NCBI GenBank assembly: GCA_947458545.1
Contig: CANGYH010000004.1
Span: 124,001-188,000 of the forward strand
Direction: 5' to 3'
DNA from: Cytophagaceae bacterium
Lineage (GTDB): Bacteria > Bacteroidota > Bacteroidia > Cytophagales > Flexibacteraceae
DNA: 64,000 nt
Part shown: positions 4,041 through 47,567 of the stretch, piece after piece
How the letters are laid out: each line of letters opens with the position of its first letter
How positions within the stretch are numbered: position 1 is the first letter of the stretch
Program-made: the position numbers and the translations under genes
Notes under the pieces: model-generated
Told to the model about the DNA's origin: nothing
Seen by the model: the letters and a program-made list of their open reading frames with translations, nothing else
Database searches by the model: none

Positions 4041-4264
4041 ACGCCTAATCTCTATAGCCCAGCTTAATTGCTAGGAGCAAACATCCATTTTACAACCACT
4101 TATTCAGCCATAAGTTATAATCAACTCGCGTATATGTAGCTTTTATGTACAAAATACCCGTGGCGAGTTTTTTTTATAAAAATAGGTGCGTGATTAAAAA
4201 CGCAGGCAGTCCTATTTTATATCTTTATCACAAATAAGTTATGTATAATTCCGGAAAATGGAAC

Positions 4265-4295
4265 ACAGTCTCCCGCCTTTTAAGTGGGAGACTGT
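4265..4295. terminator. Inverted repeat overlapping the stop of PAS gene 2
   Basis: ACAGTCTCCC and GGGAGACTGT form a perfect 10-bp stem with an 11-nt loop; the stop codon at 4280-4282 lies in the loop. There is no strong U-tract on either side, so it may be a weak terminator or an mRNA-stabilising hairpin between the two PAS genes. Confidence 0.45.
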
Positions 4296-5905
4296 TCTGA
4301 TTCGTGCAGGATGCTGCGCGTGGCATCGTCTAGCTGTTTGGCAGCTAGGGTGAGCTGCTGCAGCCAGGCTGCTTGCTCGGCGTTTTGGCTTGGGGGTAGT
4401 ATCTGCAAGATGCCCATGATGCGTGCCAGGGGCCCGCGGACCTCGAGGCTCTGAAACCAGGCTATTGATTTAAGCCGGTCAACTTGCTTGCGGAGGGCCT
4501 GCTCTTGGTTGTAGGCGGCAGTAATCTCTCTGCCTACGCAGAAGAGGGCGGTAACCTCGCCGTCGGCATTGGTAATTGGGCTGACGACGGCCTGGTAGGC
4601 CCTTGTGCTGCCGTCTCGCATTACTACCTCGCCCTGGCGCGTGGCGATGTTGCCTGCAAAGGCTTCTGCAAAGGCCTCTGCCAGGCCCAGAGAGAAGCCC
4701 TGCGGCTGGCGCGGCATCACCACAGGCGAGCGCATCTGATAAGGTGCCTCTGGCTTATCTAACAGATCTTGCCGCAGGGTTTGGTAGGCCGGGTTGCTGT
4801 ATTGCACCTCGTAGTTGCGGCTTACGATCCAGATACAGTCTGAGGCTTGGTCTAGCGCCTTGGCCTGCTGGCGCGCAAGTGTGGCCTGGCCTTTGGCGCG
4901 GCGGCGCGCTGCTGTAACGTCGTGGCTTAGCACGGCTAGGCCCGTGGGCGAAGGGTGCACGGCCACTCTATAGTGCCTGTCTAGGTGGGGCACATATTTT
5001 TCGAACTCGGCCAAGGCGCCGCCCAGGCCTTGCAGCAGGGCCAGCTTTTCGGCTTTTTCTAGCTGTGGCTGCAGGCTAAAGATGGAGCGGCCCAGGGCAG
5101 CGGCAGGCTCTACCCGGGCAATCTGCCCTTGGGTGGCATTCATGTAGAGCACGCGGAACTCATGGTCTAGGGCCAGGTATCCGTCGGGCCGGGCGGGGTT
5201 GGCCAGGCTCATTTGCCGGGCAAAGCCGGCGGCCTCTTGCCTGCCGGTTACCTCGGCCGTTTTGTCTATCACCACGGCCAGGTGCCTTTTGGTGTGGTGC
5301 TGCCCGTAGGCCCCCAGCAAGACTTGCACCCAGCGGATGTCATGATCGGGCCGGTGGATCCGGAAAAGGCCAGCATCTGTAGTGCCGCTGACAGCAGCAG
5401 GCCAAGGCATGCCCTCGCCCGAGGGCCGGGCGTGCAGGCTGGCGATGCTCCAGGTTTTGAGCTCTGCCTCTGTGTAGCCGTAGAGGGCCTGCGCCGCCGG
5501 GTTGGCGTTCAAGATCTGGCCAGAGCCATCGGCAATCAGCAGCGGCAGCGGGTTGTGCTGCAGGGCCAGGTAGTGGTTTTGGCCTAGGCCTACCATCTGG
5601 CTGTAAACGTAGCGCAAGAGGGCGTAGAGGCCTGTGGCAACCAGCGTTACCCAGGCGGCCTCTAGATACAGGCCTGGGCCTGCCTGCGGCCAGGCAGCCT
5701 GCTTGGCCAATAACAAGCCCAGGCCTACGGCCAATACGCCAACGGGCAAAGGCCAGATCTGGCAGGCACGGCCGGTGGCGTCGGCATAACCCAGCATGGC
5801 GAGGGAGTCTGCCTCTGGCAGCGTGTTGGCCTTGGATTGCCTAGTCGTTGCAGGCGAATCTGCAGCCGGCAGAGAAACTCTGGGCTGTTCTGTGTCAATT
5901 GTCAT
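4280..5905 (-). CDS. Membrane PAS protein with DHp helix lacking the phospho-acceptor histidine (2 of 3)
   Basis: 541 residues. Two transmembrane segments around residues 50-110, then about three PAS domains (roughly 115-235, 240-340 and 350-470) and a DHp segment IAWFQSLEVRGPLARIMG. At the H-box the residue that is His in both neighbours is Leu487 (codon CTC), so this copy cannot be phosphorylated at the usual site. As in the paralogues, no HATPase_c domain follows; the protein ends 54 residues later (ILHESEQSPT). Separated from its neighbours by about 240-256 nt, so each gene may have its own promoter. Either a sensory scaffold or a decaying duplicate; the intact PAS and DHp framework favours a maintained non-kinase role. 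Confidence 0.75.
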   Translation of the reverse strand: MTIDTEQPRVSLPAADSPATTRQSKANTLPEADSLAMLGYADATGRACQIWPLPVGVLAVGLGLLLAKQAAWPQAGPGLYLEAAWVTLVATGLYALLRYVYSQMVGLGQNHYLALQHNPLPLLIADGSGQILNANPAAQALYGYTEAELKTWSIASLHARPSGEGMPWPAAVSGTTDAGLFRIHRPDHDIRWVQVLLGAYGQHHTKRHLAVVIDKTAEVTGRQEAAGFARQMSLANPARPDGYLALDHEFRVLYMNATQGQIARVEPAAALGRSIFSLQPQLEKAEKLALLQGLGGALAEFEKYVPHLDRHYRVAVHPSPTGLAVLSHDVTAARRRAKGQATLARQQAKALDQASDCIWIVSRNYEVQYSNPAYQTLRQDLLDKPEAPYQMRSPVVMPRQPQGFSLGLAEAFAEAFAGNIATRQGEVVMRDGSTRAYQAVVSPITNADGEVTALFCVGREITAAYNQEQALRKQVDRLKSIAWFQSLEVRGPLARIMGILQILPPSQNAEQAAWLQQLTLAAKQLDDATRSILHESEQSPT

Positions 5906-8488: not shown

Positions 8489-8502
8489 GTGGAGGATAAC
8501 GG
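8489..8502. repeat. Left attachment repeat (attL core)
   Basis: gtggaggataacgg is identical to 47554-47567, which covers the 3' end of tRNA-Ala(GGC). The copies are 39,065 bp apart in direct orientation and enclose the integrase and all phage genes. Confidence 0.75.
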
Positions 8503-8855
8503 GCGCGAGGCTTGGCATAGCCTGGCATACCGGATACGACAAGTCAGGCAGTTAGCTTGATTGCGCTGCCGAGTGTGGCGCACCTAATCTGCCCTATCAT
8601 GCAACTTGGTTGAGCCATACTTGAACCACGGCGAGGGCTTATGTGACGGCCATGTAACTGCCATGTGACGGCCATGTAACTGCCATGTAACTGACAATGG
8701 CGGGCAGGTCAAGGGTCTGCCGGCGGCTGCTGCGAATCGTCGGCAAAACAGATATGGGCAAGGCCAAGCCATGCCTTGCCATTTGGGCGACAGCCTGTTG
8801 CCGAATCTTTGCCTCCAGAATGCATACGGCCTTGTGGGCCGCATCCATCTAGCTT
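8503..8855. other. Prophage left-end region with likely integrase arm sites and 11-bp repeats
   Basis: No credible gene. At 8612-8629 it has GAGCCATACTTGAACCAC, matching 47482-47499 (GAGCCATAGTTGAGCCAC) at the other prophage end with two mismatches; the octamer TTGA(A/G)CCA occurs at 8610, 8621 and 47491. These are candidate arm-type integrase sites. Further in are five 11-bp repeats (8641-8695), described separately. Short frames on the minus strand across the repeats look fortuitous. Confidence 0.5.
8641..8695. repeat. Five 11-bp direct repeats at helical spacing
   Basis: ATGTGACGGCC, ATGTAACTGCC, ATGTGACGGCC, ATGTAACTGCC and ATGTAACTGAC stand head to tail with no gaps. A period of 11 bp places each copy on the same face of the DNA, as for protein-binding arrays. 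Located between the left att core and the methylase gene. Confidence 0.75.
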
Positions 8856-9659
8856 ATGATAAAGTCAACCGGCAAGACGCCGCTTTCCTACTACGGAGGC
8901 AAGCAGCGCATGGTGCGGCACATCCTGCCGCTCATACCCACCCACAAAATCTACACCGAGGCATTCTGCGGAGGCGCGGCCATCTACTGGGCCAAGCCGC
9001 CGTCCGAGGTGGAGGTAATCAACGACCTCAACCATGCCGTGACGGCGTTCTGGCGTGTGCTCAAAACCGAGTACCAGGCCTTGCGGGAACAGATCGAGCT
9101 GACGCTCCACAGCCGCGATGCCTACGCCGACGCGCTTCACATCCTGGAGCGGCCGCACCTGTTCGACGAGCTGCGCGTGGCCTGGGCGATATGGGTCGGA
9201 TGCGTCCAGGGCTTCGGCTCCAAGCCCGAGAGCTGGGGTTACGACCTGAACGGCACCACAATCAAGAAGCTGGGCAACAAGCTGGCCGAGTTCGGCCCGC
9301 ACCTGGCGCATCGGCTTGCCCGCACGACGGTGGAATGCAACGACGCCTTGCGCGTGATCGCCAGCCGAGACACCGCCGGCACCTTCCACTACGTCGATCC
9401 TCCGTACTTCAACTCCAACTGCGGGCATTACGAGGGTTACTCCGAGCAGGACTTCAGGAACCTGCTGGATCTGCTCTCGCGCGTCGAGGGCAAGTTCCTG
9501 CTTTCGAGCTACCCCTCTGATTTGCTTGCGGAGTTCACCGACCGCTACGGCTGGCACACCGTCAGCATCGAGCAAAGCGTGGCCGTGACGGGCAAGCGGG
9601 CAGGCAAGAAAAAGAAGGTCGAAGTGCTCACGGCCAACTACCCGATACAGGCGAATTAG
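8856..9659 (+). CDS. Phage DNA adenine (N6) methyltransferase, D12 class
   Basis: 267 residues. N-terminal SYYGGKQRMV (about 11-20) and TEAFCGGAAIYW (34-45) form the SAM-binding motif I region, INDLN (55-59) follows, and the catalytic motif YVDPPYF has DPPY at 181-184. This is the order of Dam/D12-class enzymes, which methylate adenine N6; the lysine-rich tail (GKRAGKKKK) is phage-like. It would protect phage DNA from host restriction or mark it for control. It stands alone on the plus strand at the far left of the prophage and is convergent with the integrase, overlapping its end by 4 nt (9656-9659). Target sequence unknown. Confidence 0.9.
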   Translation: MIKSTGKTPLSYYGGKQRMVRHILPLIPTHKIYTEAFCGGAAIYWAKPPSEVEVINDLNHAVTAFWRVLKTEYQALREQIELTLHSRDAYADALHILERPHLFDELRVAWAIWVGCVQGFGSKPESWGYDLNGTTIKKLGNKLAEFGPHLAHRLARTTVECNDALRVIASRDTAGTFHYVDPPYFNSNCGHYEGYSEQDFRNLLDLLSRVEGKFLLSSYPSDLLAEFTDRYGWHTVSIEQSVAVTGKRAGKKKKVEVLTANYPIQAN

Positions 9660-10960
9660 CGTTTGCGTGTCGTTTTTTTAGGCAAAGAGCCCGGCCCTTG
9701 GTCGGGCTTTTTCTTTTCTCCGAAAAGCGTATCTAAGGTGTCGTCAACCGCTCCCTCGTCTAGTCTTGCCAGGTACGCTTCGGTAATGGTGATGTTGGAG
9801 TGGCCGAGCGCCCGGCTGACGGCGTACACGTCTCCGGTGGCCTTGATCGCATGATCCGTGAAGCTGTGACGAGCCATGTGCGTGGTGAGATTCTTCTCGA
9901 TGCCGGCATCTTGAGCCACTCGCTTTAGGAGCTTGTTTATGGTCGCAATGGAGGGCCCCGTGGCCGTCTTGCGGTTCTTCTCGATCCACTCCGGATCGAG
10001 CCCCGGGCGCATGAAGGGGAAAATGAAGTCCGCTGCCTTTGCATCTGCCTTGCGGTACTGCGCAAGAATGGCTTGCGCCTGGCTGGGTAGCTTGATGGAC
10101 TTGGTGGTACCTGTCTTGCCCATTCGGTAAAGCAGCCTATCTCCCTGCACGTTGCCCCAGCGCAAGCAGATGGCATCACCTACCCGCATACCGGCGCAGT
10201 AGTATTGGAAGAGCAACACCGACCGGGCATCATGGCGCCTGTCCTGCGATTGATAATCGAGTGCCTTGATTCGCTCAACCTCCACGGCCGTGAGCCGCTC
10301 CTTGTGTACCTTGTCCCACTTGAAGGTGTAGCGCAAAAAAGGATTCTTGGTGCCTTCGAGCAAGCCGTAATCAATGGCACGGCTTACCATGGCCTTTAAT
10401 TGCTCAAGCTTCTTATTGACCGTATTGCGTTTATTCTTGCCGAGCCAGTGCGCTTCAAGCCTATGAATAAGCTCTAGGGTAAGGTCTTGGATTTTGATAT
10501 CCGAGCCTTGCAAAAAGTCGCTTATCTCGTTATAGATCGTGGTGTATTTCACCGCCGTAGCCTGCGACTGCGCTACTCGGATATGCTCGATTTGCTGTTT
10601 GAAAAAAAACAAGAAGCCGCCCTCTTGCTTTCCGGATTTACCCTGCAGCGCGGCCTCAACGTACTGCTTGGCAACGTCGAAATCCAAGGCTTTACCGTCT
10701 TTTTCAAGCTGCATTAAGGCAGCCTCGGCCTGCCGCAATTTATTGCGGAGCCGAGGCGTTACGATAGCCCAGTCGTCTGCCTTTTTGCTTATCCAATTTT
10801 CCTGCGCTGGGTTGGCATTCTTGTTCCAGTGCTTGCCGAGCACGTAAATTCCGAGCGTGAAGCGGGCTATTTTCTTGCCCAGCGTCATGCGCAGAAGTAC
10901 CGGCTGTGTTCCGTCCTCCTTTAACCTGGGCCGAAGCTCAAATTTCAGGTGGACGGCCAT
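9656..10960 (-). CDS. Tyrosine-type integrase of the prophage
   Basis: 434 residues, a Bacteroidota-type phage integrase: arm-binding domain (about 1-95), core-binding SAM-like domain (about 115-215) and catalytic domain with Arg259 (CAGMRVGD), Lys282, His361-x-x-Arg364 (HMARH), His387 (LGHSNI) and nucleophile Tyr396 (TEAYLARLD). It recombines attP with attB at the tRNA-Ala 3' end. Its ATG overlaps the TGA of the upstream gene (ATGA, 10957-10960 region), making it the third gene of a translationally coupled repressor-exported protein-integrase operon, so it is probably transcribed with the repressor in the lysogen. Confidence 0.93.
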   Translation of the reverse strand: MAVHLKFELRPRLKEDGTQPVLLRMTLGKKIARFTLGIYVLGKHWNKNANPAQENWISKKADDWAIVTPRLRNKLRQAEAALMQLEKDGKALDFDVAKQYVEAALQGKSGKQEGGFLFFFKQQIEHIRVAQSQATAVKYTTIYNEISDFLQGSDIKIQDLTLELIHRLEAHWLGKNKRNTVNKKLEQLKAMVSRAIDYGLLEGTKNPFLRYTFKWDKVHKERLTAVEVERIKALDYQSQDRRHDARSVLLFQYYCAGMRVGDAICLRWGNVQGDRLLYRMGKTGTTKSIKLPSQAQAILAQYRKADAKAADFIFPFMRPGLDPEWIEKNRKTATGPSIATINKLLKRVAQDAGIEKNLTTHMARHSFTDHAIKATGDVYAVSRALGHSNITITEAYLARLDEGAVDDTLDTLFGEKKKPDQGPGSLPKKTTRKR

Positions 10961-11343
10961 CAGAAGCGGTACGTAATGGCAGCGTTGCCTAAGCCAACGT
11001 CGTAGCTTAGGCCGCCGCCGTTTGAATTTCCGGCCTTAATCAGGTAATTATTTCCACGCACGTAGTTGACGATGGAAAATCCCAGGCAGACGGCCCCGGC
11101 ACCTATGCTTACGCCGCCGAAAAAGCGCATATCCGTGTTGATTTGGCCCGTGCCGTGGTAGCGGCCGAGGTAAATACCGCCCGTTACGCCGAGCGCGGCG
11201 GCGGCACCGCCGAAGGCCAGGCCTCTGTTGTAGCAGGCACCGGCTTTGGCCAGATTTGAAGCCTCGATTTTAGGTTGATTCTGGCCGCTCGCGGAGGCGC
11301 AGATACCAAGAGCGAGCAGAAGCGTTGCGATTTGATTTTTCAT
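10960..11343 (-). CDS. Signal-peptide protein encoded between repressor and integrase
   Basis: 127 residues. A signal peptide (MKNQIATLLLALGICASASGQ, cleavage likely after SASG) is followed by a small glycine-rich protein with two hydrophobic stretches (GLAFGGAAAALGVTGGIYLG and GGVSIGAGAVCLGFSIVNYV) and a C-terminus ending AAITYRF, which suggests the outer membrane. Its ATG overlaps the repressor TGA (11340-11343) and its TGA overlaps the integrase ATG. Expression from the lysogenic operon points to a lysogenic-conversion or superinfection-exclusion role, but that is inference; no family is recognised. Confidence 0.75.
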   Translation of the reverse strand: MKNQIATLLLALGICASASGQNQPKIEASNLAKAGACYNRGLAFGGAAAALGVTGGIYLGRYHGTGQINTDMRFFGGVSIGAGAVCLGFSIVNYVRGNNYLIKAGNSNGGGLSYDVGLGNAAITYRF

Positions 11344-12071
11344 CTTGCGGGTGAGTAAACGATTCGGTCTATTTTCCAGACGGCCCGGATATCGTCCACC
11401 AGGACGGGCATGCTACCGCCCTCCGAGCTGTCGGAATGCAAGGTTAGCAGTCCCTTGGTTAGAATCTCGTTGTCGCGGATGCGCTTGATCACGAACGAGC
11501 TTCCGAAGCTGACAGCGTACACGCCGGCCGATAGGTACTGCCAGTCCACCTGGGGCACTGGAAGCGCAAGTACCATGGCTCCGGCCGGGTAGCCTGGCTC
11601 CATGCTGTCTCCGTTGACCTCGAAGACCACGCCCTGCTTGTTGAGCTTAGTAGGCTGGACGTAAAGGACTCTGATTCGCTCGATCTCTGGGGGGAGGGTT
11701 CCGGTCATGTTCTCAGTAAAGGTTGCGCGCATGTTGGCCTTGACGAAGGGCAGATCCACGAACTCTTGATCAATTAACAGACCCTTCGAGGTCACGTTGC
11801 CCTCGAGCAGCATAGGCCCCTCCGAGAGGCATAGCATCCACTCCGGATTGAGGTCAGGGAAGACCTGAAGCGTCCGGGATATCATCTCCGGCGTGGCGTT
11901 ACGCCCTGCCACCCGGTTGGAGAGCTGGCTTACCTGGGCCTGCGTAGCACCGATCATGTCGGCAAAGCGGGACTTACTGCCGACACGCTTGCTCTTGACC
12001 AAAAAATTTATCAACTCCGAAAACCGCTGATTGATAGCGTCTTGGGAGGTGCTTGGTACGGTTTCGCTCAT
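11340..12071 (-). CDS. CI-like repressor with S24/LexA-type C-terminal domain
   Basis: 243 residues. N-terminal Xre-type HTH (about 14-75; SRFADMIGATQAQVSQLSN is the turn) and a C-terminal S24 peptidase-like domain with the Ser of NGDSMEPG (Ser156) and Lys196 (VIKRI). Such repressors hold the lytic promoter shut and are inactivated when RecA-driven self-cleavage occurs. A clear Ala-Gly cleavage dipeptide was not identified. The gene is divergent from the early lytic operon across a 111-nt gap rich in palindromes and leads the leftward operon with the exported protein and integrase. Confidence 0.88.
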   Translation of the reverse strand: MSETVPSTSQDAINQRFSELINFLVKSKRVGSKSRFADMIGATQAQVSQLSNRVAGRNATPEMISRTLQVFPDLNPEWMLCLSEGPMLLEGNVTSKGLLIDQEFVDLPFVKANMRATFTENMTGTLPPEIERIRVLYVQPTKLNKQGVVFEVNGDSMEPGYPAGAMVLALPVPQVDWQYLSAGVYAVSFGSSFVIKRIRDNEILTKGLLTLHSDSSEGGSMPVLVDDIRAVWKIDRIVYSPAR

Positions 12072-15123: not shown

Positions 15124-15374
15124 AGCCAAGGCTAACGCTTGAATTACAAGATGTCGTTTACAACGACGGGCCAAAAGGCTGGGGCGAGGTTACTCCTATC
15201 TGGGGCAGAGGGGGCAGCGGGCTGGCCATGTCTTATTCCAAAAAATACCTCTGGTATTGGGAGGATGGCATCTCGGTTCGGATTGAAACCTTGGAGCTAT
15301 TGAACGTGCTGCAGGAGCACATTAAGAATCTGCGCACCAATGGCCCGCAGATCAGAGAGGGGGTGGAGCTATGA
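15120..15374 (+). CDS. Hypothetical early phage protein
   Basis: 84 residues with tryptophan- and tyrosine-rich middle (YSKKYLWYWEDGISVRIETL) and a helical C-terminus. Coupled by ATGA overlap to both the upstream coiled-coil gene and the downstream cytosine methylase (15371-15374). No family recognised. Confidence 0.55.
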   Translation: MKPRLTLELQDVVYNDGPKGWGEVTPIWGRGGSGLAMSYSKKYLWYWEDGISVRIETLELLNVLQEHIKNLRTNGPQIREGVEL

Positions 15375-17155
15375 CCTGGAACCACCCCTACGCCCCCCGT
15401 TTCATCGTCGTAGATCTTTTTTGCGGCGCTGGCGGCGTTACCGAAGGCCTCAAGCGCGTCAGAGACGAGCAAGGCCGCTATGTGTACTACATCGCGGCGG
15501 CGGTCAATCACGACGCTGCGGCCATCGCCACCCATTCACGCAGGCATTCGGAGACCTACCACTTTACCGAAGACGTGCGAGACCCGGCCGTGATAGGCCA
15601 GATAGCCACCCTCATTGACGCGCTGCGTGTGCTTTACCCCGATGCCTACGTGCTGCTTCATGCCAGTCTGGAGTGTACCAACTTTTCCAACGCAAAGGGG
15701 GGCAAGCCCAGGGACGCGGACAGCAGAAGCCTGGCCGACCACATGCCTGACTACCTGACGGCTTTGAGGCCCGATTACTTCACGGTCGAGAACGTGGTGG
15801 AGTTCATGGCCTGGGGCCCGCTCGACGAGGCAGGAAAGCCGCTGAGCCGGAAGCGCGGCCTAGACTACCTGCGCTGGTGCGGCCTAGTCGAAGACATGGG
15901 CTACCGCTATCACGCCAAGGTGATGAACGCCGCGGACTACGGTGCCCGCACCAGCCGCAAGCGCCTGTTCCTATGCTTTAACCGCCCGGGTACGCCTTTC
16001 GGCTGGCCCGAGCAGACCCACAGCAAGGGCGGCAAGGTGCCGGGTACGCTGCCCTGGCAGCCGGTGCGCCCGCTGCTGGATCTGGCAGACAGGGGCGAGA
16101 GCATCTTTTTGCCCCGGCCTAAATCGGGCAAGCTGCTAAGCGAGGCAACCTTCAAGCGCATACACGCGGGCCTGCAGAAGTTCTGCCGGCGCGAGGTGTT
16201 CCTGACGCAGCTATGCGCCTCCAACAGCCAGGGGTGGAACAGCTACCCGGCGGACGGCCCCAGCCGCACGGTCACCACGCAGGACGGTACGGCGGTGGTG
16301 GCACCGGTGTTCGTGGACAGAGGCCAATTCGGGCATGACCCGGCCAGCCTGGAGGCACCGTCGCACACGCTGACGGCCAGCCACCACAGGCCGAGCCTGG
16401 CCTCTGCGGCGTTTCTTTCCCAGAACGTTTTTGCCAACGAGCCGCAAGGGCTGGACAATCCGGCGCGGACGCTGCTTACGGGCTCACACTACAATCTGGT
16501 TCAGCCCTACCTGATGCAGTCGCACGGCGGGGTGCCCAGCGGCAAAGTCAGCTCAGCCGCCGCGCCCGCCCGGACGGTGAAGGCCAGCCCCAACGAGGCG
16601 CTTGTGCAGGCCGACTTTCTGGTAAGCCAGTTCACCGGTGAGCAGGTCTATGCCACCGACGGCCCGGCGGGTACGGTAACCACGTCCTCGGGCAGCTCGC
16701 TGGCCACGGCAGCCTTCGCGGCGGGCTACTACTCCACCGGCGACAACTGCTCAAGCGTGGACGCGCCCGTCGGCACCATCACCACCAAGGATAAGGTTGC
16801 ATTGGTGCAGGCCGAGGCCGGGCGGCAGAAGCCGCACACTGGGCAAGGGCACTGGTTCGGCAAGTGCGCCGAGTTCTGCCGGGCCAACGGCATAGCGGAC
16901 GTGTACATGCGCATGCTCACGGTAAGAGAGCTTGCCCGCATACAGGGCTTCGGCGACGATTACCCGTTCGCCGGTAGCCAGCAGACTATCAAGAAGCACA
17001 TCGGCAACGCTGTAGAGGTGACGCAGAGCGAGGCCATCGGGCGGGCACTGTGGCAGGCCGCCGGGCGGATGCGGGGCAAGCAGACGGAAAGCGTCTGGTG
17101 CTCTTCGGCCGTGTGCCGCTTTATCGAGGAGCCTTCACTTTTTAACCACTCATAG
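15371..17155 (+). CDS. Phage DNA cytosine-C5 methyltransferase with repeat-built recognition region
   Basis: 594 residues. Motif I VVDLFCGAGGVTEGL (13-27), motif IV ASLECTNFS with catalytic Cys102, motif VI TVENV (Glu140), motif VIII TSRKRLFLCF, and motifs IX/X near the end (RMLTVRELARIQGF... IKKHIGNAVEV). The residue before the catalytic Cys is Glu101 instead of the usual Pro (codons GAG TGT). Between motifs VIII and IX are about five imperfect ~40-residue repeats around P(A/S)RT(V/L)T(T/A)S...A...F, making a long target-recognition region. It would methylate phage DNA against host restriction. Coupled by ATGA overlap upstream and 2 nt from the next gene. Confidence 0.9.
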   Translation: MTWNHPYAPRFIVVDLFCGAGGVTEGLKRVRDEQGRYVYYIAAAVNHDAAAIATHSRRHSETYHFTEDVRDPAVIGQIATLIDALRVLYPDAYVLLHASLECTNFSNAKGGKPRDADSRSLADHMPDYLTALRPDYFTVENVVEFMAWGPLDEAGKPLSRKRGLDYLRWCGLVEDMGYRYHAKVMNAADYGARTSRKRLFLCFNRPGTPFGWPEQTHSKGGKVPGTLPWQPVRPLLDLADRGESIFLPRPKSGKLLSEATFKRIHAGLQKFCRREVFLTQLCASNSQGWNSYPADGPSRTVTTQDGTAVVAPVFVDRGQFGHDPASLEAPSHTLTASHHRPSLASAAFLSQNVFANEPQGLDNPARTLLTGSHYNLVQPYLMQSHGGVPSGKVSSAAAPARTVKASPNEALVQADFLVSQFTGEQVYATDGPAGTVTTSSGSSLATAAFAAGYYSTGDNCSSVDAPVGTITTKDKVALVQAEAGRQKPHTGQGHWFGKCAEFCRANGIADVYMRMLTVRELARIQGFGDDYPFAGSQQTIKKHIGNAVEVTQSEAIGRALWQAAGRMRGKQTESVWCSSAVCRFIEEPSLFNHS

Positions 17156-17595: not shown

Positions 17596-18011
17596 AGAAC
17601 CGTCACCTATACCACGCTAAGTGGAGCCTTATCAGCCGGCTTATCCGCCTGCGCCGGGCCGGCAACCGCTGCGAGCAGTGCGGGGTTGAGAACCACTCTT
17701 GGATTGCGCGCTTTCAGGTAGCCGGCATACCTGCCTACGTCCCAGCCTACTGCCAAGAAAATGAAGTTGTGAGGTCTGCGGAAGACGGAAAGGTACTGGG
17801 CACCCTGGAAGGCTTCGGCCTGGTGCCTGCCAGATGGGTCAAGGTGGTGCTGACCGTTGCCCACCTAGACCAGAACCGGGCCAACAACCGCTTCTCGAAT
17901 CTCAAAGCTCTGTGCCAGCGGTGCCACTTCGCCCATGACCGCCAGGCCAATACCATGCGGCGCAAGCTGGGGCAAGACTGCTACGACCGACCTAACCTAT
18001 TCACCGCCTAA
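17592..18011 (+). CDS. HNH endonuclease
   Basis: 139 residues from ATG 17592 (an upstream in-frame ATG at 17550 lies inside the previous gene). A first Cys pair (CEQCG) and a second (CQRCH) would bind a structural zinc; between them VAHLDQNRANNRFSNLKALC gives the H-N-H core (His of VAH, Asn of RANNR, His of RCHFAH). Phage HNH enzymes nick DNA in packaging, replication or as homing nucleases; next to methylase and primase genes a replication/recombination or free-standing role is equally possible. Confidence 0.82.
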   Translation: MKNRHLYHAKWSLISRLIRLRRAGNRCEQCGVENHSWIARFQVAGIPAYVPAYCQENEVVRSAEDGKVLGTLEGFGLVPARWVKVVLTVAHLDQNRANNRFSNLKALCQRCHFAHDRQANTMRRKLGQDCYDRPNLFTA

Positions 18012-18024
18012 ACGCAACGTTCCC

Positions 18025-21000
18025 TTGCGCATAGATAAATCTGAAGTCCTGGCCATCACCAACCAAGGCCTAGACGTATTCGCTCATTTTTTGCCGGAAG
18101 CCGCGGCCATCCGAGGTTACCGTGCCATCAACCTGTGCTCTCCCTTCCGTGCCGACTCGGACTCGGACGGCTGCTCGATCTACTTCAACAAGAAGCACGG
18201 CAAGTGGTGCTTCCACGACTTCATCACGGGTGAGGACTTCGACTGCTTTTCCTTCGTGCAGCGATACCGCGGGTGCGAGTTCAGGGAGGCGGTCGAGATC
18301 TGCAACCAGATAGGCGGTGGGGTCAATGTGGATAACTCGGCGACCTTCGTCAAAGCGCCGGCCCGAGAGAAGCTCAAAGTGCGCCGCGTCTGGCCGGGCT
18401 GGGAGGCAGGCCAGAACCGCCTGGAAGGTACTACCGCCCTGCACGAGTGGATGGGCGGCCTCGGGGTATCGGCCGAACACATGCGTATGTGGGGCCTGGG
18501 CCACTACCGGGCCAAGAACGGCCCGCAGCACACGGCCTTTCTATACATCGACGCCGACGGCAGGCTATGCACCTGGAAGTGCGTCCAGTACAACGCCGAC
18601 GGGCGGCGCATCAAGATGGATGCCGAGGGCAACAAGCTTTTCCCTTGGTTTGCCAAGCCCTGGCCCAGGGAGCGCGACGGCGAAGAGCTCGAGTACGGCA
18701 AGTGCCTGTTCGGCTCACACCTTCTGGACCCGGCCAAGGGCCGCTCGGTCTGCCTGGTGGAGTCCGAAAAGACGGCTATCCTGGCCGCGTACTTCTACCC
18801 GGCCTACGACTGGGTAGCCACCGGAGGTGCCACCGGCTGCCAAGACGAGCACTTCGAGGTGCTGCGCGACCGCAGGATATACGTCTTCTGCGATGCCGAC
18901 CCGGCAGGCCGCAAACCTAAAGCCGCCTTCCGCCTGCGCGGTCTGGGCATGGAGTGTACCATCGTGGACTTGTGGCCGCAAAAGGGCCTTCTGCTCGACG
19001 ACCCCGAGCGCGGCTTCGACCTGGCAGACGGCATCGCACAGGGCGAGCGGCCGACGCTTTTCACGACCGGAAAGCACGGACAGATCGAGGTGAACGAGAA
19101 GGGCGAGGACGAAGTGAAGTGGATAGGCGTATGGGAGCACCAGATAGACAAGGAGACCGGTGAAATCATCGAACACCTAAAGCCGCTGCTGGATCTGAAG
19201 TGGCCATCGCCGCCAGCCAAGAAGGCCGCTAAGGCAGGCCAAGACGACGAGCAAGGATATGACTGGCTATCCATCATTCCGGAGGAGGCTTACGAAGAGG
19301 AAGGCAACGACCCGGAGAGCGATATGAACAAGTACGGCTTCTTCGAGTGGAAGAACCAATACTGGGTGCCTGCCAAGTCTGGCAACGGCTGGAGGCGCCA
19401 GGCTATCTCAAACTTCGTCTGCCGCTACCTCTTCCACATGGAGACGGGCAAGCGCACCCTGCGCATCGTCGAGCTGCGCAACAACCGCGGGGTGATCAAG
19501 ACGATTGAGACGGAGACGGGTAACCTGGTATCGGTGGGCGAGTTTATGAAGTTCGTCGAGGGTGCGGGCAACTTCCGCTTTGAAGGCGGGCGAGCCGAGC
19601 ACCAAAAAATAAAGGCCAAGCTGATGGAGCAGGAAGAGTACTGCCAGCAGCTGGACGTACTGGGCTGGAACGCTGCCGGCTTCTTTGCCTTTGCCAACGG
19701 CCTATACCTGCCACAGAAGGGTGCCGGCAAAGACACCCGCACAGGCTTTCTAGAGGCCGACACGCGCGGCATCGTGAGCCTGGGTAGTAAGAGCTACTAC
19801 CTGCCCGTAGCCAACGCCACGTATCTCAATAACCCGGCCCTCTTCAACAACGAGCGCAAGGTGCGCTACGTGGAGACCGGCGTAAGCTGGGAGACTTGGG
19901 TAAGCCTCTACCACCGCGTGTACGGTGAGCCTGGCATGGTGGCGATGCTCTTCGGCATGGCCTGCGCCTTCTCGGACGTCGTGTTCTCTGCGCAGCAGTT
20001 CTTTCCGATGCTTTTTTTCTACGGAGAGGGCGGCTCGGGTAAGGGCGTACTCATTCGATCGACGCAGCACCTCTTCGGCAAGCCGCAAGACCCCTTGCAC
20101 CTGAGCTCTGACGCCAACACCGATAAGGCCAAGATTCGTGAGCTTGCCCAGTTCCGCAACCTCATCTGCTGCCTGGAGGAGTACCGCAACGGCAATGACA
20201 AGACCGTCAACATGCTAAAGGGCATCTGGGACAGGTTCGGCTACAAGAGGGCCAGCATGGACACCAGCTACCGCACCGAGACGGTACCCATCCAGTCAGG
20301 CGTAATGATTACGGGCAACGACTACCCGACCGACGACCCGCTGCTGCAGCGCCTCATCGTGCTCGAGCTGAACAAGAACCAGCGAACGGAGGAGGACAAG
20401 TTCAAGTTTCAAGAGCTGAAGGAATTGCAGGAGACGGGCATGACCGACATCCTCTGCCAGCTGCTGGAGGAGCGGCCGCTTATCGAGGCGGACTTCAACA
20501 CGACCTTCCGCGAGTGCTCCCGGGATATGGGCAAGCTCTTTGCCGGCGTATCGCTGACAGACCGGATGATCTCCAACGTAGCCGTGCTGGATGCCATGTA
20601 CGTGCTGCTCTCGCCGCGCTTTCCGATGCCCTTCAACCGCGAGGAGCTGCATGCCTACCTACGCGAATCCATGACGCGGCAGAACGCCAAGCGCGACACA
20701 GGCGGAGACGTGGCCAAGTTCTGGGACACGATCATGTACTGCATCGGCAAGGGAGAGATCACCGACGGCGGCGAGATCCGCGTGGACGGCGACACCATCT
20801 CGGTGCGCTTTACTGAAGTCCACATGAAGTACAAGGCAGCCTTCCGCTTCGTGCACGGTGGCCAGGGCTTGGAGCGTATGTCTATGCTCGACAAGCTGCG
20901 CGGCACCAAGGCCTACAAGGGCGCAAAGGCCACCGCCCGGTTTGCGAACGGTGCCCGCTCCAGCTGCCACCTTTTTGACTTGAGCCAAATCGAGGCCGAC

Positions 21001-21096
21001 ATCCTGGGTGCGATTGCCATCTCAAAAGGCGACGGATCAAGCGGCCACCCGTCCACCATCAACGAGCCTGTTGAAGAAGAGGCTCTACCATTCTAA
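18025..21096 (+). CDS. Phage primase-helicase: zinc-ribbon-like, Toprim and SF3/DUF927-type ATPase domains
   Basis: About 1023 residues from TTG 18025, chosen because the only upstream ATG (17935) lies well inside the HNH gene. Order: a degenerate CHC2-like module (CSPFRADSDSDGCSIYF near residue 37), a Toprim domain with VESEKTAIL (about 245) and DADPAG (about 289), a linker, and a C-terminal AAA+/SF3 helicase with Walker A GEGGSGKG (about 666), Walker B LICCLEEY and sensor ITGNDYPTDDPLLQRL (about 761). It would prime and unwind at the phage origin. A 13-copy iteron array with an AT-rich core lies 560 nt downstream. Followed by small genes in the same direction. Confidence 0.85.
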   Translation: MRIDKSEVLAITNQGLDVFAHFLPEAAAIRGYRAINLCSPFRADSDSDGCSIYFNKKHGKWCFHDFITGEDFDCFSFVQRYRGCEFREAVEICNQIGGGVNVDNSATFVKAPAREKLKVRRVWPGWEAGQNRLEGTTALHEWMGGLGVSAEHMRMWGLGHYRAKNGPQHTAFLYIDADGRLCTWKCVQYNADGRRIKMDAEGNKLFPWFAKPWPRERDGEELEYGKCLFGSHLLDPAKGRSVCLVESEKTAILAAYFYPAYDWVATGGATGCQDEHFEVLRDRRIYVFCDADPAGRKPKAAFRLRGLGMECTIVDLWPQKGLLLDDPERGFDLADGIAQGERPTLFTTGKHGQIEVNEKGEDEVKWIGVWEHQIDKETGEIIEHLKPLLDLKWPSPPAKKAAKAGQDDEQGYDWLSIIPEEAYEEEGNDPESDMNKYGFFEWKNQYWVPAKSGNGWRRQAISNFVCRYLFHMETGKRTLRIVELRNNRGVIKTIETETGNLVSVGEFMKFVEGAGNFRFEGGRAEHQKIKAKLMEQEEYCQQLDVLGWNAAGFFAFANGLYLPQKGAGKDTRTGFLEADTRGIVSLGSKSYYLPVANATYLNNPALFNNERKVRYVETGVSWETWVSLYHRVYGEPGMVAMLFGMACAFSDVVFSAQQFFPMLFFYGEGGSGKGVLIRSTQHLFGKPQDPLHLSSDANTDKAKIRELAQFRNLICCLEEYRNGNDKTVNMLKGIWDRFGYKRASMDTSYRTETVPIQSGVMITGNDYPTDDPLLQRLIVLELNKNQRTEEDKFKFQELKELQETGMTDILCQLLEERPLIEADFNTTFRECSRDMGKLFAGVSLTDRMISNVAVLDAMYVLLSPRFPMPFNREELHAYLRESMTRQNAKRDTGGDVAKFWDTIMYCIGKGEITDGGEIRVDGDTISVRFTEVHMKYKAAFRFVHGGQGLERMSMLDKLRGTKAYKGAKATARFANGARSSCHLFDLSQIEADILGAIAISKGDGSSGHPSTINEPVEEEALPF

Positions 21097-21137: not shown

Positions 21138-21356
21138 ATGAGTAATTCTAAATCCGAAAACGGAATCCTAGGCTTCACCATGATCCTGACTCTGACTTTC
21201 ATCACCCTTAAGCTTATCGGAGCCATCGCCTGGAGTTGGGCCTGGGTCTTGAGCCCCATGTGGATGCCGATTGGCATCTTGGCCTTGGCCATGCTAGTCT
21301 ACTGGATTCACCAGACTCTCACAGGCATCGCTATAAGGAACGGATGGAAAAAGTAA
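21138..21356 (+). CDS. Small two-helix membrane protein
   Basis: 72 residues with two hydrophobic segments (MILTLTFITLKLIGAIAWSWAWVL and WMPIGILALAMLVYWI) and a short basic C-terminus (RNGWKK). Starts 42 nt after the primase-helicase and overlaps the next small gene by 13 nt. No family recognised. Confidence 0.65.
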   Translation: MSNSKSENGILGFTMILTLTFITLKLIGAIAWSWAWVLSPMWMPIGILALAMLVYWIHQTLTGIAIRNGWKK

Positions 21357-21574
21357 GCCAATACCCCACCCTGTTCTGGGCGCGTGAAGCGCCAAGGTCT
21401 CCGGCCGTGCTGGAGGAGCTACGACAGGCCGTGTTCCGTGTGGGTGACGCATCCAGCGCCGACCCGCTCAACCGTCAGCTGCGCGACGACACAGAGATGC
21501 TGGACAGCATCTACAAGAAGGCACTGCTTGCAAGAGCAGCCATACCGGAGGCGCAGCTTCAAGTGGCGGCCTAA
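21344..21574 (+). CDS. Hypothetical small phage protein
   Basis: 76 residues from ATG 21344 (MEKVSQYPTLFWAREAP), mostly helical and charged (RSPAVLEELRQAVFRVGD... TEMLDSIYKKALLARAAIPEAQ). It overlaps the membrane-protein gene by 13 nt and is followed by a hairpin and then the iteron region, so it closes the replication operon. Confidence 0.6.
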   Translation: MEKVSQYPTLFWAREAPRSPAVLEELRQAVFRVGDASSADPLNRQLRDDTEMLDSIYKKALLARAAIPEAQLQVAA

Positions 21575-21655: not shown

Positions 21656-21858
21656 TCTGACAACTTCTGACATCTGACAATCTCTATTAACTAATTGATT
21701 ATTAGATATATAATGATTATTAAAGAGAGAGAAAGCGTCAGAAAATGTCAGAAGTTGTCAGAAGTTGTCAGAGTTCTGACACTTCTGACGCTTTCTGACG
21801 CAAAAACGGCCATAACCGATTGATAAACAGGCATTGTCAGAAGTCAGAAGTTGTCAGA
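21656..21858. repeat. Iteron array with AT-rich core: likely phage replication origin
   Basis: The hexamer TCTGAC (or its complement GTCAGA) occurs 13 times in 203 nt: forward at 21656, 21666 and 21673; reverse at 21737, 21747, 21757 and 21767 (exactly 10-bp steps); forward at 21775, 21784 and 21794; reverse at 21836, 21843 and 21853. The first and second groups flank a 50-nt AT-rich segment (21680-21730, TATATAATGATTATTAAAG). Iterons beside an AT-rich unwinding stretch, directly behind the primase-helicase operon and outside any credible gene, is the layout of an iteron origin. Short open frames through the repeats are artefacts of the repeat. Confidence 0.7.
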
Positions 21859-22810: not shown

Positions 22811-23299
22811 ATGATGAGACTCAGCCCGCTGGGACTATCTATCCTGAAGCACTATGAAGGCAAGGGCGGCAAGCCGGTCTTGAAAGCTTACCGCTGCCCC
22901 GGCGGCGAGTGGACGATCGGCTTCGGTACGATCCTGTACCCCAATAACGCACCCGTGCGCCAGGGCGACCGCTGCACCCCCGAGCAGGCGGAGGCCTACC
23001 TGCAGCATGACGTGCGCATTGCCGAGACCACCGTCCGCGCCCTCTTCCACGACGACAACCTGGCCCAGCACCAGTTCGACGCGCTCGTGTGCTTTAGGCA
23101 CAACTGCGGCGTTGGGGCCATCTCAAACTCTAGCCTGCAGGCCTACATCCAGAAGGGCGGGCGAGACCGCCAGCGCATAAGTGACCTCTTCTGCGCCTGG
23201 CACTTTGCCGACGGTCGCCGCCTCGACGGCCTGCTGGCCCGCCGCTCCACCGAGGCATTTCTCTTCAACACCGGCCAAGTCCGCTTCTTCGAGCTATGA
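22811..23299 (+). CDS. Endolysin, T4-type lysozyme (GH24)
   Basis: 162 residues (ATG ATG start). The GH24 catalytic region is clear: LKHYEGKGGKPVLKAYRCPGG with Glu16, then EWTIGFG with the family's Thr position, and later FDALVCFRHNCGVG, matching the T4 lysozyme FDALVSFAFNVG segment. It cleaves the MurNAc-GlcNAc bond of peptidoglycan at lysis. No signal peptide, so export needs the holin, which lies 14 kb away (36955). Its TGA overlaps the next ATG (23296-23299). Confidence 0.92.
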   Translation: MMRLSPLGLSILKHYEGKGGKPVLKAYRCPGGEWTIGFGTILYPNNAPVRQGDRCTPEQAEAYLQHDVRIAETTVRALFHDDNLAQHQFDALVCFRHNCGVGAISNSSLQAYIQKGGRDRQRISDLFCAWHFADGRRLDGLLARRSTEAFLFNTGQVRFFEL

Positions 23300-28497: not shown

Positions 28498-29043
28498 ATG
28501 TCCCTACCCGAGCGCACAGGCGAAGACCGCCTCGACTACTACGACAAGCTGATCGCCTGCATCGTGGGCGACCGAACACCCTCGCCTGAGCAGGAGGCGC
28601 AAATCGAGAAGCTAGACTTCGCCTGGTCGCTGCTGCGCACCTACCCGGACAAGCACACCGTCCGGAAAATCCTCGAGAGCAAGTACGATATCAAGTTCGG
28701 CCAGGCTTACAAGATCATCCGCGATGCCATCCGCATCTACGGCAACGTGGGGCAAGAGCTGCAGGAGGGCACCAAGTCGCTGTACGCGTCTAAGTTCCTG
28801 GCCATCGCCCAGCGGGCAGAGGAAGAGGGCAAGCTGACGGAGGCGATCTCCGCACTCTCTAAAGCCGCCAAGATCGAGGGTGCCTTCGATCGTGCGAGCA
28901 CCGAGCAAGAGGAGGACTGGAGTCCGCCGCGTGATATTGAGTTCACGACAGACCCGGCCGTCTTCATCGAGAGCCAAAAGACACACGACGTAGCGCACGA
29001 GGTACTGCCGGAGCCAGACGACGAGGAGGATGAAGAAGACTAG
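28498..29043 (+). CDS. Terminase small subunit
   Basis: 181 residues overlapping the large-subunit gene by 14 nt. A helical DNA-binding part (KLDFAWSLLRTYPDKHTVRKILESKYDIKFGQAYKIIRDAIRIYG) is followed by an oligomerisation helix and a very acidic C-terminus (PEPDDEEDEED), a usual layout for small terminases that recognise the packaging site and hand DNA to the motor. The family is inferred from position and this layout. Confidence 0.75.
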   Translation: MSLPERTGEDRLDYYDKLIACIVGDRTPSPEQEAQIEKLDFAWSLLRTYPDKHTVRKILESKYDIKFGQAYKIIRDAIRIYGNVGQELQEGTKSLYASKFLAIAQRAEEEGKLTEAISALSKAAKIEGAFDRASTEQEEDWSPPRDIEFTTDPAVFIESQKTHDVAHEVLPEPDDEEDEED

Positions 29044-30550
29044 CATATACCTCAACGCCAAGCAGCTGCTGTTCCTGCGCTCTCGCCACAAGCGCAAGAC
29101 CTTCATGGGCGGTCGAGGCTGCGGCAAGTCCACCGTGCTGGGCTTCTACCTATACCTGTGCATGCGCTACCTGCCGGGTGCCAAGTGGGTGTTGCTGGGC
29201 ATCACCTACAAGCAGCTCAACACCAAGACGGTGAAGGCACTGAAGGAAGCCTGGTCGCTGCTCGGCTGCATGCCCTACAATCCGCGCACCGGCCGTGGAC
29301 ACTATGTGGTGGGCAAGCGTCCGCCTGCGCACTTCAAGCAGGCCGTCTCCGCTCCGGAGGACTTCGACCACGTGATCTACTTCCGCAACGGCTTCCACAT
29401 CGAGATGATCAGCCAGGAGGTCGCGCAAGAGAACCGAGGCGGCAGCTACGACGGCGGTGCGGCCGACGAAGAGGCGCTTCTCGATCAAGAGTTCGTTACC
29501 CAGATCGGCGAGGCCTCGATTCGTGGCAACCGCTACCGCTTCAAGCACTGGCTGCACGGTTCGTTCTGCAGCTTCACCTCGATCCCCCGCACCACCAAGG
29601 GGCTGTGGGTCTTCAAAGTGGAGGAGGAGATGATACGCGAGCAGCAGCTCGTAAAGGCCGGCAAGCTGAAGAAGTCAGAGTGCCGCTACCTGTTCGTGGA
29701 GGCCCGCAGCGACGAGAACCTGCTCGTGCTGGGCGAGGACTACATCGAGCGCCAGCGGGCCGCTATGCAGCCCTGGGACTTCGAAGCGGAGATCATGAAC
29801 CAGCGGCCGCGCAAGCTGCCCAACGGCTTCTACCCCTCGCTGGAGCGGAAGCACCATGCCGTGTCTGACGTACACAAGTACGTCAAGAACTCGGCCGGAG
29901 AAATCGTGGCCAAGCTGGACAAGTTCTTAAACCTGGAGCAGAAGCTAGAGCTGTCCTTCGACTTTAACGCGGGGTTCACCTCCATGATCGTGTGCCAGGA
30001 GATCATCACCGGGGAGGGCATCGAGTTCCGCGTCGGCGACTCGCTTTGGGTGAAGCCGATGGAGACCGACAACAACCTCATCGACGCGCTCGTGGACAAG
30101 TTCTGCGAGGCATACAAGTACCACTACCTGAAGGTGGTGGACGTGTACGGAGACCGTAACGGCAACAGTAAGAGCGCAGGCAGCACCCTGACATTCTACG
30201 AGCAGATCATCATTCGGCTGGAGAAGCATGGGTGGTCGGTATTCAAGCGGCCGGAGCGAGATCTCGACATGGCGCACGACTTGCGCCACTTCCTGGTCAA
30301 TGCCCTGCTGAAGGAAGAATCGCCTACCTGGCCGAAGGTGCGCTTCCATTTCCAAAAGGCCGACGGCCTGCTCACCTCCATGGAGCGGGCACCCATCCTA
30401 GAGGGCTTCAAGAAGGACAAGGCCGACGAAAAGCGGCCCGTACCGCAAGAGCTGGCCACCCACCTCTCGGACTGCTTCGACAACATCGTCTGCCGCAAGT
30501 ACGACTGGATACTCACCGGCGATACCGGGCATCAGATTTGGCTGAGCTAG
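29030..30550 (+). CDS. Terminase large subunit
   Basis: 506 residues. N-terminal ATPase with Walker A GGRGCGKST (27-35) and Walker B GGAADEEALLD (about 143-153; Asp-Glu pair). The C-terminal nuclease has the first acidic residue in LSFDFNAGF (about 305-315) and further acids in VVDVYGDRNGN (about 365). It is the packaging motor that cuts concatemers at the portal. The portal gene should follow but is displaced by the 4-kb cargo island starting at the stop codon. The TAG is shared as CTAG with the convergent cargo gene. Confidence 0.92.
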   Translation: MKKTSIYLNAKQLLFLRSRHKRKTFMGGRGCGKSTVLGFYLYLCMRYLPGAKWVLLGITYKQLNTKTVKALKEAWSLLGCMPYNPRTGRGHYVVGKRPPAHFKQAVSAPEDFDHVIYFRNGFHIEMISQEVAQENRGGSYDGGAADEEALLDQEFVTQIGEASIRGNRYRFKHWLHGSFCSFTSIPRTTKGLWVFKVEEEMIREQQLVKAGKLKKSECRYLFVEARSDENLLVLGEDYIERQRAAMQPWDFEAEIMNQRPRKLPNGFYPSLERKHHAVSDVHKYVKNSAGEIVAKLDKFLNLEQKLELSFDFNAGFTSMIVCQEIITGEGIEFRVGDSLWVKPMETDNNLIDALVDKFCEAYKYHYLKVVDVYGDRNGNSKSAGSTLTFYEQIIIRLEKHGWSVFKRPERDLDMAHDLRHFLVNALLKEESPTWPKVRFHFQKADGLLTSMERAPILEGFKKDKADEKRPVPQELATHLSDCFDNIVCRKYDWILTGDTGHQIWLS

Positions 30551-34392: not shown

Positions 34393-34707
34393 ATGTCAGA
34401 AGACCTGATCTGTATCCGGCGAGTCTTATCGGAGATCTACTGCGCCCCTGAGCCATTCGCACTGACATTCATCACGCAGGACGGCAGAAGGGTCACGAAA
34501 GAATCCGTCCGGATCGGAGGAGGCAAGAGGCTGACGCAGAGGCAAGGGCAGGTGGTACCTGCTGCGCCTACCCGAGAGGGCAGACGCATCAAGGAAAATC
34601 ACCTGCTACTCCTCTACGACAACCTCGCCCGCCATCCCTTTTACGCAAAAATCTGCCTGCTCACGCATTGGAACGGGCTAAGAATCAAGCACCTATATGG
34701 TAAATGA
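34393..34707 (+). CDS. Small phage protein upstream of the portal
   Basis: 104 residues, basic (about 20 Arg/Lys), overlapping the portal gene by 11 nt. A central segment (SVRIGGGKRLTQRQGQVVPAAPTREGRRIKENHLLLLYDN) and the ending HWNGLRIKHLYGK suggest nucleic-acid or DNA-end binding. Unknown role in head assembly or packaging; kept because of the overlap with the portal gene and the same direction. Confidence 0.6.
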   Translation: MSEDLICIRRVLSEIYCAPEPFALTFITQDGRRVTKESVRIGGGKRLTQRQGQVVPAAPTREGRRIKENHLLLLYDNLARHPFYAKICLLTHWNGLRIKHLYGK

Positions 34708-35983
34708 GCACATCCAGCTAGACCGCAACGTCTGGCTACTGCCCAAATCAGGCGTACTCATCGACTTTGCCGCCCGCGACTCTGCCTTCTCGGACACCAG
34801 CTTCGAGGCCAAGTCCGGCGAGTTCAAGTTCGCCAAATGGGGCAAGGTCAACCTGCTTCCCCAGACCATGCTCGACCTGGTCACGCGCAACCACATCAAG
34901 GCCAAGCTGCTCACGACCGAGGAGGAGTACCTCTACGGCGCGGGCCTGAAGATCTTTAAGCGCACCCTGGTAGATGGCACCGAGCGCATCGAGCCCGCGT
35001 TCCATCCGGATATCCAGCGCTTTCTCAACAGCTTCAACCACCGCCGCTACATACAGCGGGCGATCAACAACTACGTCAACACGGCCAACGTGTTCACGGA
35101 GTTCGTGTTCAACGCCCTTCGCAACGTCGTTTCGCTCAAGTGCCACGACTCAACGGACGTCCGTGCCGGCATCATCGACCTGGCCAACGGCTCGGGCGAG
35201 GTGGAGCAATACGGCATCTGCCCTGACTGGAGCAAGACGCCCGGCGAGAAGAACCCGCTTGTGGTGGTGGATGCCTACCGCCCTGGGCAGATGCAGGCCA
35301 AATGCATCTTCCACGCCAGCCGTGAGCGCATGGGCCAGAAGTATTACAGCTACCCGGACTGGTGGGGTACCATGACGTGGACGGAGGTATCCAACCTGAT
35401 TCCGCTCTTCCACCGCAACGGCCTCAAAAACGGTTACAATATCAAGTACCTGATCAAGGTACCCAAGTCCTACTTTGACCGAATGGCCAACACCGACGAG
35501 GAGCGCGAGGCCAAGCGGCGCAAGCTGCGCGAGGACTTCGACTCGTTCTTCGCCGGTGCCGAGAATGCCGACAAGACCATCTGGTCAACCTATGACCTGG
35601 ACGCCAGCGGTCGGCAACAGCCCGGCATCGTCGTGGAGACGGTCGGCCAGACGGACTCCGACAAGAGCTACATCGAGCTGGACAGGCAGGCGAACATGAA
35701 CCAGGCCGTCGGCCATGGCGTGTTGCCCCAACTGGCCGGTATCGGCGACGGCTCCAACAAGGGCACGTCTGGCTCCGAACTACGGATCGTGTCCCAGCTC
35801 CATACGGCGCTCAAAACGCCCATGCCACGCCAGGTGCTGCTCGAGCCCTTTGAGATCGTAGCCCGGCACAATGGCTGGCCCGCCGAGTACTTCGTCGCCT
35901 TTTCGGACATCGAGATCACAACCTTAGACCAGAACCCGACGGGTAAGCAGCGGGTGGTAGATAATGGCCAGAACAATCTTTAA
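34697..35983 (+). CDS. Portal protein
   Basis: 428 residues. The segment NHIKAKLLTTEEEYLYGAGLKIFKR followed by a helical stem and the C-terminal LPQLAGIGDGSNKGTSGSELRIV... LEPFEIVARHNGWPAEYFVAF matches Bacteroidota-type phage portals; the GIGDGSN..GTS motif is a recurring portal feature. It forms the dodecameric DNA gate at one capsid vertex. Overlaps the next gene by 20 nt. Normally it follows the large terminase directly; here the cargo island separates them. Confidence 0.78.
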   Translation: MVNEHIQLDRNVWLLPKSGVLIDFAARDSAFSDTSFEAKSGEFKFAKWGKVNLLPQTMLDLVTRNHIKAKLLTTEEEYLYGAGLKIFKRTLVDGTERIEPAFHPDIQRFLNSFNHRRYIQRAINNYVNTANVFTEFVFNALRNVVSLKCHDSTDVRAGIIDLANGSGEVEQYGICPDWSKTPGEKNPLVVVDAYRPGQMQAKCIFHASRERMGQKYYSYPDWWGTMTWTEVSNLIPLFHRNGLKNGYNIKYLIKVPKSYFDRMANTDEEREAKRRKLREDFDSFFAGAENADKTIWSTYDLDASGRQQPGIVVETVGQTDSDKSYIELDRQANMNQAVGHGVLPQLAGIGDGSNKGTSGSELRIVSQLHTALKTPMPRQVLLEPFEIVARHNGWPAEYFVAFSDIEITTLDQNPTGKQRVVDNGQNNL

Positions 35984-47553: not shown

Positions 47554-47567
47554 GTGGAGGATAACGG
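47554..47567. repeat. Right attachment repeat (attR core)
   Basis: gtggaggataacgg, identical to 8489-8502, lies within the 3' end of tRNA-Ala (T-stem strand and acceptor). The tRNA remains intact across it. Confidence 0.75.

Follow-up and report, generated by a model that had tools for sequence, protein, structure and literature searches.

A mirrored iteron array downstream of a phage primase-helicase gene is very probably a prophage replication origin

The window, by which we mean the whole 64-kb stretch of DNA that was analysed, contains a dense array of one hexamer downstream of a gene for a large primase-helicase, and the question raised by this locus is what the array is for. An initial annotation had counted thirteen copies of TCTGAC/GTCAGA at 21656-21858; all thirteen are exact and lie where it had placed them. 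As written on the + strand, TCTGAC sites start at 21656, 21666, 21673, 21775, 21784 and 21794, and GTCAGA sites at 21737, 21747, 21757, 21767, 21836, 21843 and 21853. The steps from start to start are 10, 7, [64], 10, 10, 10, 8, 9, 10, [42], 7 and 10 nt, so that 6 of the 12 are exactly 10, and the alternating groups at mostly 10-bp steps described initially resolve into four blocks. Block A (21656..21678, - strand) has three sites at steps of 10 and 7 nt and is followed by the AT-rich segment that the initial annotation had also seen, a spacer of 58 nt (21679..21736) that we propose as the melting site; its AT content is 79%, against a GC content of 59% for the prophage. Block B (21737..21772, + strand) has four GTCAGA sites at 10-nt steps, and block C (21775..21799, - strand) three inverted sites at steps of 9 and 10 nt. 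A second spacer of 36 nt and 58% AT (21800..21835) leads to block D (21836..21858, + strand), whose three GTCAGA sites at steps of 7 and 10 nt mirror block A, each outer block thus having one 7-nt step. We reject chance as the source of the array: when the whole window was dinucleotide-shuffled 100 times, the largest group of any one 6-mer in 250 nt counted 4.93 copies on average and 7 at most, against 13 here. All six occurrences of the spaced pair GTCAGAANNNGTCAGA in the 3.23-Mb genome fall inside this array, and no second GTCAGA cluster was found in the window. Matches to the DnaA box consensus number 4 in the window against 2.2 expected, none of them near the array.

The region around the array is an integrated temperate phage of roughly 39 kb, a length that follows from 14-nt direct repeats at 8489..8502, beyond the integrase gene, and 47554..47567, at the end of a tRNA-Ala gene, which are probably the attachment-site repeats. 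Between them lie genes for the integrase (9656..10960, - strand), a repressor (11340-12071), a lysozyme (22811-23299), the terminase large subunit (29030-30550) and the portal (34697-35983). Two DNA methyltransferase genes are also present, one near the left end (8856-9659) and one that directly precedes the primase-helicase gene within the replication module (15371-17155). The primase-helicase, P0001, has 1053 aa and is encoded at 17935..21096 on the + strand. The initial annotation had placed the array immediately behind this gene; the downstream side is right, but the array begins 560 nt past the stop codon and two short + strand ORFs lie between. One of these (21138..21356) belongs to the uncharacterised phrog_1374 and is probably outside the origin, and the other (21344..21574) has no family match. 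Our analysis supports a replication origin as by far the best reading of the array, and we think it very probable that it is the origin of the prophage and is recognised by the primase-helicase encoded upstream. The initial annotation had named the array as a candidate phage replication origin, and that proposal is now strengthened by the linkage of arrays to a helicase family, by a layout that is kept while the repeated word changes, and by the likeness in fold to initiator helicases that bind iterons.

P0001 matches DUF6371, which is its sole Pfam domain at E 0.01, and phrog_22657, phrog_1139 and phrog_47. The N-terminal half carries the DUF6371 domain and primase-like matches, while the C-terminal half matches the uncharacterised phrog_22657 and DNA primase families. 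An AlphaFold2 model was made from the helicase half of P0001 and six viral relatives; its mean pLDDT is 67, with 71-87 at residues 471-570 and below 50 in the ATPase part (231-356). In a Foldseek search of the PDB with this model there were four significant rows, all from SaPIBov1 Rep (8tch) and SCCmec Cch (5dgk), with E values of 1.8e-6 and 1.7e-5. Alignment with VIA-align gave Z scores of 14.7 for SaPIBov1 Rep, over 429 residues (model 3-573), and 11.4 for Cch, the ATPase part being of low confidence in the model, and this suggests that P0001 shares the helicase fold of these proteins over most of its chain. The next hit, at Z 7.7, is 5vfx, the winged-helix pCW3 relaxosome protein bound to oriT, which aligns with model residues 463-561 (P0001 923-1021); the same segment reaches a Z of about 5 against ORC winged helices. 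The helicase half of P0001 is therefore predicted to end in a C-terminal winged helix, with codons at 20701..20997 (+ strand).

Relatives of P0001 were found in 61 records of a phage collection, from phages of Porphyromonas, Flavobacterium, Cellulophaga, Pseudomonas, Microcystis and others. As single queries, P0001 and its relative from a Microcystis phage found no viral relatives, and P0001 alone found none among genome contigs; a two-row alignment used as the query found six viral relatives. With a profile of the helicase half built from eight proteins we assembled a sample of 50 distinct members from genomes, viral contigs and phage records. Members were taken as testable if 200 nt or more of sequence follow the gene; these are 49, including the window itself (L109), L097 being left out as its contig ends inside the gene. 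In 39 of the 49, the window included, the helicase gene is followed by an array. In 34 it falls within 1300 nt of the stop codon, where none of 200 shuffles reaches it, and among 30 members the upstream side has an array in only one. Twelve members were scanned over up to 5 kb downstream with 100 shuffles each, and five of them (L037, L110, L113, L164 and L011) have arrays that no shuffle equals. The other seven (L009, L038, L094, L106, L114, L143 and L152) have no significant array up to 5 kb downstream, and L158, L015 and L111, the last with only 220 nt of sequence, are also among the members without one; L015, L038 and L158 have sub-threshold clusters of 5 copies each. In all these scans detection is by exact 6-mers, and the shuffles preserve dinucleotides but not gene structure. 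As the members are related the counts are not independent trials, and the 29 members with GT-type words fall into 17 clusters at 60% core identity. Two controls gave far fewer arrays. Among DUF6371 genes without this helicase, scanned with a cluster window of 220 nt (250 or 300 nt afterwards), 2 of 24 have an array (L023 and L098), and none of 42 half-loci has one at 21 loci with only weak, unrelated ATPase matches. The clusters at L023 and L098 have seven copies each (CTTGTC, ACTTCC) and may be other origins.

This linkage bears on the possibility that the array is a cluster of operators for a regulator or a neighbouring small protein that controls the following genes. Clustered inverted sites fit cooperative DNA binding, and there are uncharacterised small ORFs on both sides of the array. 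The initial annotation had likewise suggested that the array could be the binding site of a neighbouring small protein. Five small ORFs were compared with the fetched loci, and three have no match. Of the remaining two, orf22297 has a 3e-4 match in L172, where no array is present, and orf21900 has a 6e-3 match over 48 residues in L086 and L140, where it lies just behind the array. We therefore reject the small ORFs as conserved partners of the array, there being nothing beyond the one 6e-3 match, and the suggestion of a small binding protein is not supported. The constant partner is the helicase, and the distance between helicase gene and array varies across members from less than 20 nt to 3 kb. 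Control by an operator would also leave the long AT-rich spacers and the initiator fold of the helicase unexplained, and we consider it improbable.

Most arrays are built alike: a short block on the left is followed by an AT-rich spacer, by inverted ladders with steps of 10-11 nt, and then by a second spacer and a block on the right. We read 41 arrays in this way, including those of L015, L038 and L158, which are below the shuffle threshold. The strict order X, gap, Y and again X, gap, Y holds in 23 of the 41, and the others deviate. In 22 of 32 arrays the first block closes with a step of 7 or 8 nt, and in 6 with one of 10 nt; the second block opens with a step of 10 to 12 nt in 34 of 40. Median spacer lengths are 56 nt for the first and 46.5 nt for the second, and the first generally has a higher AT content than the sequence around it, with L117 and L142 as exceptions. 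The repeated word, on the other hand, varies by lineage, and about 20 words are found. These include GTCAGA (the window and L189), GTCAGG (L103, L104, L105 and L108), GTTGGG (L107), GTCCGA (L037 and L147), GCCCGA (L110) and further GTAGGA, GTAGGT, GTTGTA, TGTAGT, GTGGCA, TGCTAA, GGAAAC and others. L103 and L107 illustrate the change: their helicase cores are 74% identical and their sites are at nearly equal positions, but the word is GTCAGG in one and GTTGGG in the other. The orientation of words, the word lists and the 38-nt gap rule were manual choices made once the data had been viewed, and L151, which has 6 irregular copies and is counted among the 34, was left out of the word analysis.

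Similarity between words correlates with similarity between helicases, with r of 0.63 for the core and 0.58 for the C-terminal domain. Beyond the core, the C-terminal domain has a partial r of 0.04 with the word, a value reached by 242 of 1000 permutations (39 members, L117 and L158 left out). In a scan of 571 alignment columns for specificity residues, using 18 representatives of the 29 members with GT-type words, none is significant, and 449 of 500 permutations reach the best column. As there is neither covariation beyond the core nor a specificity column, the winged helix as reader of the word rests on homology. The wing residue R1008 of P0001 is R in all three representatives with CA words and K in both with CC words, but it is also R in two with TG words, a post-hoc pattern without statistical support. 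A broader picture, which we offer tentatively as possible rather than probable, is that this large, uncharacterised family of phage primase-helicases uses one fixed origin geometry, with mirrored half-origins, often an outer doublet at 7-8 nt, inner ladders at 10-12 nt and AT-rich spacers, in which a word of 6-7 nt read by the winged helix has repeatedly been rewritten. If true, nature would offer in this family a set of interchangeable pairs of initiator and origin, with one ring loaded per half-origin. Since the geometry hardly varies between members and the word does, swaps of the word or of the C-terminal domain would show how a self-loading helicase recognises and opens its origin.

The association was also followed in both directions. 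The C-terminal domain of L110 is close to that of L037, and no array lies within 1300 nt of the L110 gene, so a GTCCGA array like that of L037 was expected farther on. L110 has ten copies of GCCCGA in the family layout at 2.84-3.09 kb downstream, the GTCCGA array of L037 being at 2.99-3.22 kb. Place and layout were thus predicted correctly and the word was one base off; GTCCGA itself occurs only twice in the L110 stretch, as TCGGAC. In the reverse direction, viral contigs were scanned for the spaced GTCAGA pair and, among the matches listed, of which 78 new loci were examined, one locus (L189) encodes this helicase family. Its protein is 27% identical to P0001 over the helicase half, and an array of nine GTCAGA copies starts 46 nt past the stop of the helicase gene, with the layout < 9 < [51] > 22 > 10 > 20 < 10 < [51] > 8 >.

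Origins of this kind are already known from SaPI and P4, and the value of the family lies in its nearly constant geometry with a changing word. According to PMC7581432, SaPI Rep uses its C-terminal domain to bind iterons that come just after its own gene, apparently as two hexamers. Besides the helicase fold, the likeness to P0001 is in the C-terminal winged helix and in the position of the iterons downstream of the helicase gene. In SaPI5 Rep a primase is fused to the helicase as in P0001, but the P0001 primase is of another type. The Pfam families of the SaPI and SCCmec proteins, DUF927 (SaPIBov1 Rep and Cch) and D5_N/Primase_Cterm (SaPI5 Rep and Cch2), are not found in P0001 at E 0.01, and since Pfam gives DUF6371 only, P0001 may work like an initiator of the SaPI/SCCmec type but is not filed as a member. 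The element in the window, with its terminase and portal genes, is moreover a phage and not a satellite like SaPI. The alpha protein of P4 is also a fused primase-helicase. Applied to P4, the same way of reading sites gives < 10 < [41] > 24 < 11 < 10 < for ori1, with inverted iterons at steps of 10-11 nt around a spacer as in the window, and P4 crr, with ten GGTGAA sites, lies directly downstream of alpha. By its layout the array in the window thus belongs with a known kind of origin, although P4 has two separate sites, ori and crr, with the word GGTGAA, where the window has a single array of GTCAGA, and the D5_N, DUF5906 and Pox_D5 domains of alpha are not found in P0001 (Pfam, E 0.01). The third comparison is ORF904 of pRN1, which like P0001 combines primase, helicase and winged helix and has a proposed origin just downstream; its authors state that it has no iteron structure, and its primase, unlike that of P0001, is archaeo-eukaryotic (PMC4234260).

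The case of pRN1 suggests another explanation, in which recognition is of a large stem-loop or cruciform like the one proposed there, and the hexamers are only the stems of that structure. Both pRN1 and one phage have a stem-loop downstream of a gene for a primase-helicase with winged helix, according to the same paper (PMC4234260). As single-stranded DNA the array in the window folds at -59.7 kcal/mol against -20.1 for shuffles, with possible pairing of blocks A and D and of B and C. Such folding is, however, a by-product of inverted iterons. Across the family the inner blocks B and C frequently differ in their number of sites and in their steps, as with 6 versus 2 copies at steps of 11 versus 20, and in L010, L011, L030, L031 and L113 the A and B blocks have the same orientation. 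These features speak against a stem-loop, which we consider about as improbable as an operator. Least probable of all is that the array serves not initiation but partition, incompatibility or copy control, functions that plasmid iteron arrays can also have, since the array accompanies a helicase of initiator fold within the replication module and an element with an integrase and probable attachment repeats has no need of partition when integrated.

The reading of the array as an origin is based on its tracking of the helicase family in distant phages and prophages, on a layout kept while the word changes and on the structural kinship of P0001 to initiators. By analogy with these, P0001 would bind the GTCAGA sites via its C-terminal winged helix and assemble as helicase rings on the inverted ladders that flank the AT-rich spacer. 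It could then melt the spacer, load, unwind the DNA and prime synthesis, the melting, loading and priming being taken from its homologues. The mirrored design, with A, AT-rich spacer and B followed by C, second spacer and D, suggests two opposed half-origins on which two opposed helicase rings may be loaded. An origin and a likely initiator can thus be assigned to a phage replication module that occurs across many related phages and prophages, and whose helicase half has the uncharacterised phrog_22657 as its best match. In the open-licence full-text literature that we searched, no origin is described for this helicase family.

Arrays of 7-10 GTCAGA copies are also found 3' of other replication helicase genes: in L213 (gene 3194-5416, array from 5422), L187 (gene 8689-10104, array from 7986), L041 (gene 2746-5370, array 1315-1553) and L056 (gene 4701-5801, array 4676-4883). 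The helicases are, in the same order, of the Prim-Pol/DUF3987, DUF5906, Prim-Pol with helicase region and AAA_25 kinds. The same word may therefore be used by unrelated initiators. The alignment of our family profile with the L041 helicase is confined to the surroundings of the ATPase motifs. A short palindromic cluster, with three GTCAGA copies at 10 nt and one inverted, is present in L042, L043, L044, L045, L046 and L059; in L042 the cluster follows a gene for a DnaB-like helicase at a distance of about 150 nt.
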